Position numbers and translations under genes: made by a program. A DNA stretch of 39,299 nt from an uncultured archaeon (GTDB lineage: Archaea > Micrarchaeota > Micrarchaeia > CABMEP01), in NCBI GenBank assembly GCA_902385155.1, contig CABMEP010000035.1, positions 1-39,299 of the forward strand, given 5' to 3'. Positions 342 through 21,364 of the stretch are shown piece by piece. Position 1 is the stretch's first letter. Every line of letters begins with the position of its first letter. The notes below the pieces were generated by a model that ran no database searches, had not been told where the DNA came from, and worked only from the letters and a program-made list of their open reading frames with translations.

Positions 342-450
342 CGAGCCCGAAGGGAATTTCGGCGCTGCCGGAATCGTCTTCCGACCGCACGTTCGAACCC
401 TCAGCCTCCTGGTCCGAAGCCAGGCGCTCTATCCGTTGAGCTACGGGCCC
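342..450 (-). tRNA. tRNA-Arg (TCG) with a 36-nt T-loop intron
   Basis: The acceptor strand GGGCCCG (450-444) pairs with CGGGCTC (349-343), leaving G73. The D arm is normal, and the anticodon arm CCTGG-CTTCGGA-CCAGG gives anticodon TCG (417-415). The T stem strands GAGGG (402-398) and CCCTT (354-350) pair, but 43 nt lie between them instead of 7. About 36 nt within 397-355 must therefore be an intron in the T loop after TTCGA. The insert folds on its own: TCGGAA and TTCCGG form a stem around GACGA. A TATA-like AT-rich box lies near 476-487. Exact splice points cannot be fixed by eye because bases repeat at the borders. Confidence 0.85.
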
Positions 451-522: not shown

Positions 523-613
523 TAGCGGGGAGTGGATTTGAACCACCGATCTCCGGGTTATGAGCCCGGCGGGCACTCCAAGCTACCCTTAGGGAACATC
601 TGTTTACCCCGCT
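523..613 (-). tRNA. Initiator tRNA-Met (CAT), 5' part disrupted or intron-bearing
   Basis: The 3' three quarters are a clear archaeal initiator: D-arm bases GGGTAGCTTGGAGTGCCC, anticodon arm CCGGG-CTCATAA-CCCGG (CAT at 562-560), T arm GGTGG-TTCAAAT-CCACT, acceptor CCCCGCT and A73. A1-T72 and the GGG-rich D stem mark it as initiator. The nearest 5' strand, AGCGGGG (613-607), pairs perfectly with CCCCGCT, but 16 extra bases (about 604-589) separate it from the D arm. A second candidate 5' end lies at 1535-1521, upstream of the endonuclease-like gene. The first bases of this tRNA overlap the stop codon of that gene. Which 5' end is used is open. Confidence 0.82.
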
Positions 614-1464
614 AGCTTGGATATTACAAAACGCCTGAATTGAATAGGCGTTAACACTTTAATACCCTTCCGTAAGTAGCGTGTGTATTCTTCAGCGCGG
701 TTTCTTGTTGTTACAACAATCATTTTGACATCAGGGATCTCGTTTTTGATAAGATAGAACTTTTTGTTCAATCTATTTGATTTTTGTTCCGGATCATCCC
801 AACACGTCGCTTCAATAAGAAGATTTGGAGCCTGTTTTATAGAAAAATCTACAGATACATATCCATTTCTATTTTTAACCTTGAAAATCCGTTCATATTT
901 GTAATCAAATCCAGCCACCTGGAGTACAGATGCAACATAAACTTCAAGCCAATTGTACATTTTTTCTCCATTCGGACCGATCGATCCTCTATGGATTTGT
1001 TTTAATGCGCTCAGAGACCATCTCCTTCTTGAATTTACGGATGCGCCATGAATTCCACGTTGTCGTATTGCAAGTGTGGCACCGCCCAATTTGCATTTAG
1101 CACACCATCGATTATAGAATTCATCTCCATTAAGGAGTTCCAAAATCTTTTGTTCGCCTTTTATCGAACCGTGTTTCGCCTTTTTGATCCATTCTTTTCT
1201 AAAGTTAGGGTCTTTCATTAATTCCTTAAGTCGCGTTTTGACACGTATACTCATTTTTGAAGTGTATCTCAATCGATATGTCGGATCCTTTAATTTTTGT
1301 ATGATTGCCTTCGCACCATTTGAACGAATTGTTTTGAGATATGATGTGTTTCCTAACTCTGTCCTTAAACTTTCTTTTAGTTCCCTAAGTTTCATATGGT
1401 GTTTTATAGATAAATCAGCCAAGCGTTGTCCTGACTGGAACTCTTCAACAAGTTTACTGAACAT
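604..1464 (-). CDS. Endonuclease-like protein, probably mobile (PD-(D/E)XK-like)
   Basis: A 286-residue protein, visibly AT-rich against the GC-rich neighbours, which suggests transfer. Residues 1-125 are helical and basic, with two similar segments (KDPTYRLRY near 60, KDPNFRKEW near 85) and a CxxC at 121-124. The C-terminal half looks like a restriction-endonuclease fold: E174 in a helix, D206 in a strand, then E218-A-T220 eleven residues on, followed by a strand-helix-strand. The usual motif Lys is Thr, so the assignment is tentative. A TATA-like box at 1487-1494 sits about 26 bp before the ATG, so it probably has its own leaderless promoter. The last codons and stop lie inside the tRNA-iMet 5' end, which suggests homing or insertion at this tRNA. 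Confidence 0.6.
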   Translation of the reverse strand: MFSKLVEEFQSGQRLADLSIKHHMKLRELKESLRTELGNTSYLKTIRSNGAKAIIQKLKDPTYRLRYTSKMSIRVKTRLKELMKDPNFRKEWIKKAKHGSIKGEQKILELLNGDEFYNRWCAKCKLGGATLAIRQRGIHGASVNSRRRWSLSALKQIHRGSIGPNGEKMYNWLEVYVASVLQVAGFDYKYERIFKVKNRNGYVSVDFSIKQAPNLLIEATCWDDPEQKSNRLNKKFYLIKNEIPDVKMIVVTTRNRAEEYTRYLRKGIKVLTPIQFRRFVISKLAG

Positions 1465-1520
1465 GCTTCAAATCAAAAATTAGTCATATATAAACATTTC
1501 TCTAGTTCATTTCGTGTGAT

Positions 1521-1535
1521 TTACCCTACCCTGCT
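1521..1535 (-). repeat. Duplicated 5' end of initiator tRNA
   Basis: On the minus strand this reads AGCAGGGTAGGGTAA, matching the expected initiator tRNA start (acceptor, bases 8-9 and 5' D stem). It continues in register with GCTTGGAGTGCCC at 583 if about 0.94 kb between is removed. GGGTA is present at both joints. Against the acceptor 3' strand it has one mismatch (A4 against C69). Confidence 0.65.
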
Positions 1536-1557
1536 ACGAGATGTATATTCCAGCTAT

Positions 1558-1566
1558 CTTTATATT
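1558..1566 (-). promoter_or_regulatory. TATA-like box for the initiator tRNA locus
   Basis: The minus strand reads GAATATAAAG centred about 27 bp before the tRNA-like 5' end at 1535. This is the usual archaeal TATA spacing. No comparable box is seen at that distance before the alternative 5' end at 613. Confidence 0.5.
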
Positions 1567-1587
1567 CCCTCGCCGTTTCGGAGTATC

Positions 1588-2325
1588 GTGCGCGGGGTGC
1601 TTTCGTTCCTCTATGCGTTCGCTGCGATCGCTTCGATCCTTTTCGTCTATTCGTACTATTCCTCGCTGAAAGGGGACATCGACTCGACGGAGCATCACCT
1701 CCTTGTCCTCGAAGACAGGCACGCGCGCGAAATGGAGCTGAAGCGGGCCGTCACGGACACGATACGGCACTCCGTGAATATGACTCTGAGTCTAGATCCG
1801 AACGCGGATCCCGAAGCGATACAGGAACGCATCGGCAATGACCTATCCTTGCTCAGGGGCGTCGAGGGCGCGGAGGGATACAAGAATTACTCATACGGCG
1901 ATTTCCGCAGCAGGTTCACTGTCAGATTCTGGTGCGGCAATCCATCGAAAGAAGAGCTTGATCGGGTAGCCGAGACCCATGACTGGTCCAAAAAGAGCGA
2001 TTACATCTGCGAAGGATGCCATTATCTCGACGAGGAGTTCGCGTACATTACCTTCGATTCGGATGGGAACGTCATCGGCGGCGGCACAAGGAACCTGTGC
2101 GCCCAGCTGCTCTCTGTCGATAAGGGCAACAAGATCATCTCGGTCTCCGCGTCCCAGCTGAAAAACGCGATTCTCCGCCACCGTATAATGATCGCGGATC
2201 CGCTTTCCGAAAGCGTCCTGCTTTCCGGCGATTCAATGTTCGGAGTGATGGTCTACGACAGCGCTGAAGACGTGTCATCGGTCGCAGTCATCCCGATGTC
2301 TACTGAAATCAGGTGGATTGGATGA
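1588..2325 (+). CDS. Membrane-anchored surface protein, first gene of prepilin-like operon
   Basis: I do not recognise a family. The GTG start at 1588 follows GGAG; a longer frame from 1516 would run into the opposing tRNA promoter. The 245-residue product begins with one hydrophobic segment (about residues 2-22) and a short coiled-coil stretch, then a mixed outer domain with cysteines (WCGN, YICEGCHY and NLCAQ) that could form disulfides. Its stop overlaps the ATG of the next gene in ATGA, and three more small proteins with N-terminal prepilin-like helices follow. A role in an archaeal type IV pilus-like structure or its anchoring is inferred from this context only. Confidence 0.6.
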   Translation: MRGVLSFLYAFAAIASILFVYSYYSSLKGDIDSTEHHLLVLEDRHAREMELKRAVTDTIRHSVNMTLSLDPNADPEAIQERIGNDLSLLRGVEGAEGYKNYSYGDFRSRFTVRFWCGNPSKEELDRVAETHDWSKKSDYICEGCHYLDEEFAYITFDSDGNVIGGGTRNLCAQLLSVDKGNKIISVSASQLKNAILRHRIMIADPLSESVLLSGDSMFGVMVYDSAEDVSSVAVIPMSTEIRWIG

Positions 2326-3797: not shown

Positions 3798-3917
3798 GCC
3801 AGAGTAGCTCAGCTTGGTTAGAGCGCCAGACTCATAAGTTTCACTCAAGACCCTGTGGAAACAGAACGGTGGAATTAAGAAATCTGGAGGCCGAGTGTTC
3901 AAATCCCTCCTCTGGCA
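3798..3917 (+). tRNA. Elongator tRNA-Met (CAT) with 45-nt intron
   Basis: The acceptor GCCAGAG (3798-3804) pairs with CTCTGGC (3910-3916), with A73 at 3917. The D arm is GCTC...GAGC. The anticodon stem CCAGA pairs with TCTGG (3883-3887), and the anticodon CAT is at 3833-3835. The loop is interrupted after position 37, so the intron is about 3837-3881 at the standard 37/38 site. The G1-C72 pair and Gly-Gly D loop separate it from the initiator near position 600. The T stem GAGTG/CCCTC has one T-C mismatch, an oddity in an otherwise regular gene. Confidence 0.9.
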
Positions 3918-8670: not shown

Positions 8671-8772
8671 GTGGGGATGGCAGAGCCTGGTCAAATGCGC
8701 GGGACTTAAGACCTGCACGGGAGGACATCCCGTGCCCTAGCGGCTTCGTGGGTTCAAATCCCACTCCCCACA
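8671..8772 (+). tRNA. tRNA-Leu (TAA) with 16-nt intron
   Basis: The acceptor GTGGGGA pairs with TCCCCAC (8765-8771), A73 at 8772. The anticodon stem CGGGA pairs with TCCCG only if 16 bases (8711-8726) are removed after position 37; the anticodon TAA is at 8707-8709. A long class II variable arm follows, then T arm GTGGG-TTCAAAT-CCCAC. Without removal of the 16 bases the anticodon loop would have eight bases and a poor stem, so the intron is well supported. It is among the shorter archaeal tRNA introns. Confidence 0.9.
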
Positions 8773-21248: not shown

Positions 21249-21364
21249 TGGGCCGGCGGAGATTTGAACTCCGGACCTACAGTTGACCTAAGCCTGTCCT
21301 GATATTAGTGTATCAGAACGCGCCATATAAGACTGCCGCTCTGACCAGGCTGAGCTACCGGCCC
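21249..21364 (-). tRNA. tRNA-Ile (TAT) with 41-nt intron
   Basis: The acceptor GGGCCGG (21364-21358) pairs with CCGGCCC (21256-21250), A73. The D arm GCTCAGCCTGGTCAGAGC and the acceptor are typical of archaeal tRNA-Ile. The anticodon stem GCAGT pairs with ACTGT, and the loop CTTATA-[intron]-A gives anticodon TAT (21329-21327). The intron is 21325-21285 at the standard 37/38 site. A T arm CGGAG-TTCAAAT-CTCCG follows. A TATA-like TTTAAAC lies about 29 bp upstream (21389-21396). TAT for isoleucine is unusual in archaea. Confidence 0.88.

Follow-up and report, generated by a model that had tools for sequence, protein, structure and literature searches.

A nuclease-like gene fused to the 5′ end of an intron-bearing initiator tRNA gene in Micrarchaeota, and a proposed homing system at tRNA genes

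The window, i.e., the whole 39,299-nt stretch of Micrarchaeota DNA analyzed here (genome G000), contains on its reverse strand an initiator tRNA gene that has an intact 3′ part and two 5′ ends, as an earlier sequence-only reading of this DNA had reported. The proximal 5′ end, which is the rebuilt one, forms exon 1 (605..613, minus strand; nt 1-9, AGCGGGGTA), and its acceptor strand AGCGGGG pairs 7/7 with CCCCGCT at 530-524. Sixteen extra bases follow nt 9 (589..604, minus strand; AACAGATGTTCCCTAA) and are in turn followed by exon 2 (523..588, minus strand; nt 10-73), which carries the anticodon CAT at 562-560 and lies in a region recognized in its unspliced form by the Rfam tRNA model (33.8 bits for 531-589). 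When the insert is removed, ARAGORN calls a tRNA-Met(CAT), and the intronless initiator tRNA sequence begins AGCGGGGTAGGGTAGCTTGG. The gene composed of 613-605 and 588-523 is probably the functional initiator tRNA gene of G000, judging from its sequence; a second complete initiator tRNA, a possibility raised by the sequence-only reading, was not found in this 965-kb, 83%-complete genome. Four further tRNA genes are present in the window, at 394-450 (minus), 3798-3917 (plus), 8671-8772 (plus), and 21249-21364 (minus); the first of them seems to be interrupted past the T loop, and the other three probably contain introns, since their matches are 102-120 nt long.

The distal 5′ end is a displaced copy of tRNA nt 1-14 (1522..1535, minus strand; AGCAGGGTAGGGTA) with one substitution (13/14 nt), and it is the sole match within the window to the intact 14-mer at one mismatch or fewer, with a chance expectation of 0.00 in shuffled sequences. 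It shows an A4:C69 mismatch, runs exactly into the D stem, and is preceded by TATAAA (1559..1564, minus strand; positions -29 to -24 relative to the displaced 5′ end), the putative TATA box of the original tRNA promoter; all three properties had already been noticed in the sequence-only reading. As over 900 nt separate this upstream native TATA box from the rebuilt 5′ end, expression of the rebuilt gene would need either transcription through the intervening ORF or an unrecognized promoter in the end of that ORF. On the other side of the displaced copy, a divergent neighbor ORF (1516..2325, plus strand), whose true start is probably a GTG near 1588, has a homolog beside the empty initiator tRNA gene of G002, a genome of the same family.

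Between the two 5′ ends lies the nuclease-like ORF of 286 aa (604..1464, minus strand), which encodes a PD-(D/E)XK-like C-terminal domain. Its stop codon, which the sequence-only reading had located in the proximal 5′ end, is the TAA at 606-604 and consists of tRNA nt 8-9 and the first intron base; the first bases of tRNA exon 1 thereby double as the last codons of the ORF. A putative TATA-like box (TTTATATA; 1487..1494, minus strand) is positioned 23-30 nt before the nuclease ATG and would fit a leaderless nuclease mRNA. The family profile matches T7 endonuclease I over the catalytic domain (E = 0.001), and E174, D206, E218, and T220, which the sequence-only reading had compared with the residues of a nuclease, are invariant among eight homologous sequences. 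The lysine of the PD-(D/E)XK motif, which varies in some members, is absent here and is represented by threonine 220 in 8/8 homologs. The model of the C-terminal domain has a pLDDT of 92.6; nevertheless, fold searches with the nuclease-like protein gave no match at E ≤ 0.001, the weak Foldseek matches (E ≥ 0.012) being headed for the domain by McrC (E = 0.012) and including R2 endonuclease and I-Bth0305I for the full model. A Pfam search of the ORF returned no useful family, with matches to GerD and Relaxase_M below the cut-offs. The ORF product is thus a probable PD-(D/E)XK-type nuclease with an altered motif, whose activity is predicted from these sequence features. No relatives of the ORF were detected in phage, plasmid, or viral-contig collections, and a scan of genome contigs with one strict peptide pattern yielded matches in Micrarchaeota only.

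The most plausible interpretation of the 16 bases at 604-589 is a bulge-helix-bulge (BHB) intron, for which splicing is predicted, in an unusual place, between nt 9 and nt 10 (position 9/10); the sequence-only reading had recorded these extra bases correctly but missed their character as a short intron. The central helix in the window is formed by nt 4-7 (GGGG) and the bases CCCT near the end of the insert, the splice points fall within the 3-nt bulges TA^A and AA^G, and the inner hairpin is short and relaxed. Among the 15 genomes in which we found an insert at this position (see below), its length ranges from 14 to 42 nt, and the central helix is paired 4/4 in 13 of them, with deviations in G081 and G114; in 20,000 shuffles, the corresponding null averaged 0.94 and did not exceed 6. 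In G067 and G038, the acceptor stem reads GAGG, with an A at nt 5, and the respective inserts provide CCTT and CTTC, which keep the pairs. Removal of the insert gives a tRNA-Met(CAT) according to ARAGORN in 14 of the 15 genomes, the uncut genes not being called as tRNA-Met, and the remaining genome, G087, carries another insert, at the anticodon. Four loci have a second insert in addition to that at 9/10, located within the anticodon arm or 3′ of it: L003 (G081), L006 (G087), L030 (G125), and L043 (G031). G000 encodes two tRNA splicing endonuclease domains, one of them in the window (PF01974; 13363..13620, minus strand; E = 5.6e-31, above the curated cut-off), and this host enzyme would be expected to excise the 9/10 intron; a broad substrate range has been described for the splicing endonuclease of Micrarchaeum (PMC12397907).

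The search for homologs of the nuclease-like ORF in 301 Micrarchaeota genomes identified strong homologs in eight genomes from six families (G000, G007, G034, G067, G081, G087, G114, and G118), in addition to one very distant homolog (G109) and one cut by a contig end (G141). The distant homolog in G109 (locus L074, 1440-2259), which has a PDF...IIECT motif, adjoins a tyrosine recombinase gene and not a tRNA gene. The sequence-only reading had proposed looking for the protein next to tRNA genes elsewhere, and all eight strong homologs are indeed located directly 5′ of the initiator tRNA gene, in the same direction; moreover, each of these eight tRNA genes carries an insert of 16-42 nt at the identical position 9/10, with the nuclease gene always outside the intron and beside the intron-bearing gene. 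The ORF of G034 has an internal stop, and its intron arrangement is intact. In two tRNA pattern surveys that scored 119 of the 301 genomes (about 180 being unscored), the initiator tRNA gene is uninterrupted at 9/10 in 104 genomes, none of which has the ORF, and interrupted in 15, namely the eight with the PD-type nuclease gene, G125 with a different nuclease gene, and six without a nuclease gene at the site (G031, G012, G035, G083, G298, and G038). The 9/10 intron is therefore found in 8/8 genomes with this putative homing endonuclease gene (HEG) versus 7/111 without it (Fisher p = 8e-9, for genomes that are not independent). The contrast repeats in all six families, each of which includes uninterrupted relatives: G002 in f1, G017 and G039 in f6, G010 and G074 in f9, G111 in f12, several genomes in f14, and G030 and G071 in f15. 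Alleles lacking both HEG and intron thus occur in same-family and even same-genus relatives. The six genomes with an intron and no HEG nearby indicate that the intron can exist or persist alone, and the clustering of the HEGs from three f14 genomes suggests that some inheritance may be vertical.

Empty sites in related genomes, which the sequence-only reading had recommended as a check, were found in the same families (G002; G017 and G039). The displaced copy in the window lies near the start of the divergent gene, the homolog of which in G002 is about as far from an initiator tRNA gene that is uninterrupted and has no ORF. A perfect 18/18-nt copy of the genome's own tRNA 5′ end (AGCGGGGTAGGGTAGCTT; 0/500 shuffles) stands ahead of the ORF in G007, at the place where the tRNA gene starts in G017 and G039, its relatives, directly following a NUDIX-type gene (named by eye). 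These empty-site comparisons indicate that the extra DNA entered inside the tRNA gene and brought a new 5′ end with it. The second of two explanations offered in the sequence-only reading, namely a tRNA-restoring homing element that entered the D stem from the 5′ side and brought a substitute 5′ end with it, thus gains support from the homologs at tRNA 5′ ends, the empty sites, and the two displaced native ends. No upstream 5′ copy was found in five of the seven PD-type loci with upstream sequence (G034, G067, G081, G114, and G118), G087 having been left out of this check as its contig ends inside the ORF; hence the displaced copy is dispensable and probably decays.

Other details at the junction vary among the genomes. 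In G000, G034, G007, and G114, the ORF closes with codons that belong to the tRNA (GCG GGR TAA/TAG), and a leftover GCGGGG stands just before the working copy in G081 and G087, as though the end had been replaced again. In G125, the tRNA 5′ end is present twice in tandem. In G118, a stretch of about 27 nt ahead of the tRNA gene corresponds to native flanking sequence of G124, an empty genome, so that the nuclease gene is situated a little upstream. Given the flank of G118 and the distribution of one intron family across HEG types in genus g28 (see below), the insertion does not have the same form everywhere.

The other explanation in the sequence-only reading placed the gene within a very large tRNA intron, so that the working 5′ exon would be 1535-1527 and everything down to 589, including the ORF and the proximal 5′ end, would form an intron of roughly 940 nt. 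A good TATA box does precede the displaced exon, the displaced nt 4-7 (AGGG) form 4/4 Watson-Crick pairs with the same CCCT that is used by the short intron, and in G007, owing to its perfect displaced copy, distal splicing would give the same tRNA. Nevertheless, we consider this reading unlikely for the window, where the distal exon brings the A4:C69 mismatch into a product that folds more weakly (-28.3 versus -34.5 kcal/mol), and a perfect exon is available just 16 nt away. As the general form of these loci it is not supported, given the five homologous loci that keep the ORF and the short intron and have no upstream 5′ copy. Distal splicing as an extra splice choice in G000 and G007 is formally possible.

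The same site is also occupied by nuclease genes of another type. G125 carries an unrelated LAGLIDADG gene (Pfam LAGLIDADG_3, E = 3.9e-9) together with a 9/10 intron, and G126 likewise has a LAGLIDADG gene 5′ of an initiator tRNA gene with a 9/10 intron. The introns of G125 (L030) and G126 (L091) are related, as they start with ACAAATTC and end with TTTGCCC plus 3 nt, and G118 shares this intron beside a PD-type gene; one intron family is thus common to genomes of genus g28 that have different HEG types. A search for the LAGLIDADG family of G125 returned 43 genomes, and 20 loci were inspected: a complete tRNA lies within 100 nt of the end of the LAGLIDADG ORF in 9/20 loci by script and in about eight more by eye, in a sample that is biased because the query itself is tRNA-docked. 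The stop codon is often located within the tRNA 5′ end (L083, L089, L082, and L093). In G000, two out of four LAGLIDADG_3 ORFs end inside intron-bearing tRNA genes (L100 on C59 and L101 on C51). LAGLIDADG ORFs that end within or beside other kinds of tRNA were seen at L079, L080, L082, L083, L085, L086, L087, L089, and L093, some of the tRNA genes at L079-L093 having introns and some not. At L077 (G069) and L078 (G137), the initiator tRNA gene directly adjoins, at its 3′ end, a convergently oriented LAGLIDADG gene, and both of these tRNA genes are uninterrupted at 9/10 and have inserts elsewhere, near the anticodon. At L081 (2177-2397), a LAGLIDADG gene closely follows the archaeal RNase P RNA gene and precedes a tRNA-like sequence.

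The presence of different HEG families at one spot could also mean that the 9/10 intron arose independently and that the intergenic position upstream of tRNA genes is no more than a place tolerated by HEGs, a view to which the six intron-bearing genomes without a HEG and the commonness of tRNA introns in the phylum lend some weight. We hold it to be improbable, given the 8/8 association across six families versus 104 genomes with neither intron nor HEG, the displaced 5′ tRNA fragments, which in two genomes mean insertion inside the tRNA gene, and the ORF ends fused to tRNA sequence. Site-specific integration of a plasmid or virus at a tRNA att site, with a remnant left behind, is the explanation advanced for Caldiarchaeum tRNA-Thr (PMC3293823). 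Such an event would place a second tRNA 5′ part on one flank and the rebuilt tRNA on the other, which is classic att anatomy and that of the Caldiarchaeum insertion (PMC3293823), yet it is very improbable here, where the sole ORF is nuclease-like, no integrase or recombinase gene lies between the tRNA copies in any homologous locus, phage, plasmid, or viral-contig relatives are missing from the collections searched, and the duplicated length varies (14 vs. 18 nt), in contrast to the constant core of an att site.

From the anatomy of the locus, its recurrence, the empty sites, the displaced copies, and the intron pairing, we infer that the nuclease-like ORF is likely a HEG that uses the initiator tRNA gene both as its target and as its dock, rebuilds the 5′ end of that gene, and is probably protected by a co-inserted BHB intron. 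The encoded enzyme would cut an intronless initiator tRNA gene within the D arm or close by, downstream of nt 14-18, a placement based on the surviving length of the old 5′ end. The right-hand broken end would then copy the donor tRNA leftwards, first the short intron, next a new nt 1-9, and finally the HEG, and the left-hand end with the old tRNA 5′ part would be joined upstream; with the new 5′ end supplied by donor copying, the tRNA would keep a working 5′ end. The host splicing endonuclease would remove the 14-42 nt BHB intron between nt 9 and nt 10. Since an intron at 9/10 would split the recognition site, the chromosome carrying it would be protected from the nuclease, and the intron would probably make the rebuilt tRNA gene immune. 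Over time, the displaced copy and subsequently the HEG can decay and leave an intron-only tRNA gene, the state of the six HEG-less genomes above; the ORF of G034, with its internal stop, would be one in the course of decay. For the phylum as a whole, we see an even chance that Micrarchaeota harbor a broad class of tRNA-docked HEGs from at least two unrelated families, which enter from the 5′ side, end in tRNA sequence, and spread short introns or select for them as immunity, in which case non-canonical archaeal tRNA introns would at least partly be footprints of past homing.

These observations bear on the old question of why archaeal tRNA genes carry introns. That such introns protect against invading elements was suggested by Randau and Soll, as cited in PMC4390854, and little direct evidence was noted for this idea (PMC3293823). 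Here, an essential initiator tRNA gene, single-copy as far as detected, has a candidate invader fused to it, and a comparison of close relatives reveals the gene in three states: occupied, intron-only, and empty. The open-licence literature that we searched yielded no account of tRNA-docked HEGs from Micrarchaeota or DPANN, nor of the combination of a tRNA 5′ end, a protein-spliced BHB intron, and two nuclease families across a phylum.

Individual components of the locus have counterparts in known systems. With T7 endonuclease I and the PD-(D/E)XK nucleases, the window protein has in common the profile match over the catalytic domain and the conserved E, D, and E; it differs in the change of lysine to threonine and in an added N-terminal helical half. 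Archaeal BHB tRNA introns (PMC4390854; for the ARMAN-2 endonuclease, PMC12397907) have a 4-bp central helix and 3-nt bulges and are cut by the host endonuclease; the helix and the bulges recur here, whereas the position 9/10 in an initiator tRNA and the link to a neighboring HEG set the present introns apart. The insertion in tRNA-Thr(GGU) of Caldiarchaeum subterraneum (Sugahara et al., 2012; PMC3293823) likewise comprises a displaced fragment, an 813-bp ORF, and a rebuilt tRNA with an extra intron, in that case at 24/25; however, it involves another tRNA and another intron position, is known from one locus in one population, and was explained by a recombinase or an integrative element, with no homing nuclease identified (PMC3293823). 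In the mobile endonuclease ORFs (mORFs) of the fungal mitochondrial genes atp6, cox2, and nad3 (PMC3630166), a nuclease ORF sits in the gene, the native end is displaced, and a supplied copy replaces it. The window and G007 show the same order, with the nuclease ORF between the displaced native end and the supplied end, and would be predicted to be mobile; mORFs differ in affecting the 3′ ends of protein genes in mitochondria, without intron-based immunity, whereas here the 5′ end of a tRNA gene is involved (PMC3630166). Collaborative homing by F-CphI and the psbA group I intron of cyanophage S-PM2 (PMC6083498) shares with the present loci a nuclease gene that lies outside the intron, beside the intron-bearing gene. 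In that system, the intron interrupts the target of the neighboring nuclease (PMC6083498), as it is thought to do here; the differences are the archaeal chromosome, the tRNA target, the protein-spliced BHB intron, the fusion of the ORF to the gene end, and the displaced fragment, with cleavage predicted for the window protein. If the proposed model is true, collaborative homing extends from the group I introns of phages to the BHB introns of archaea.
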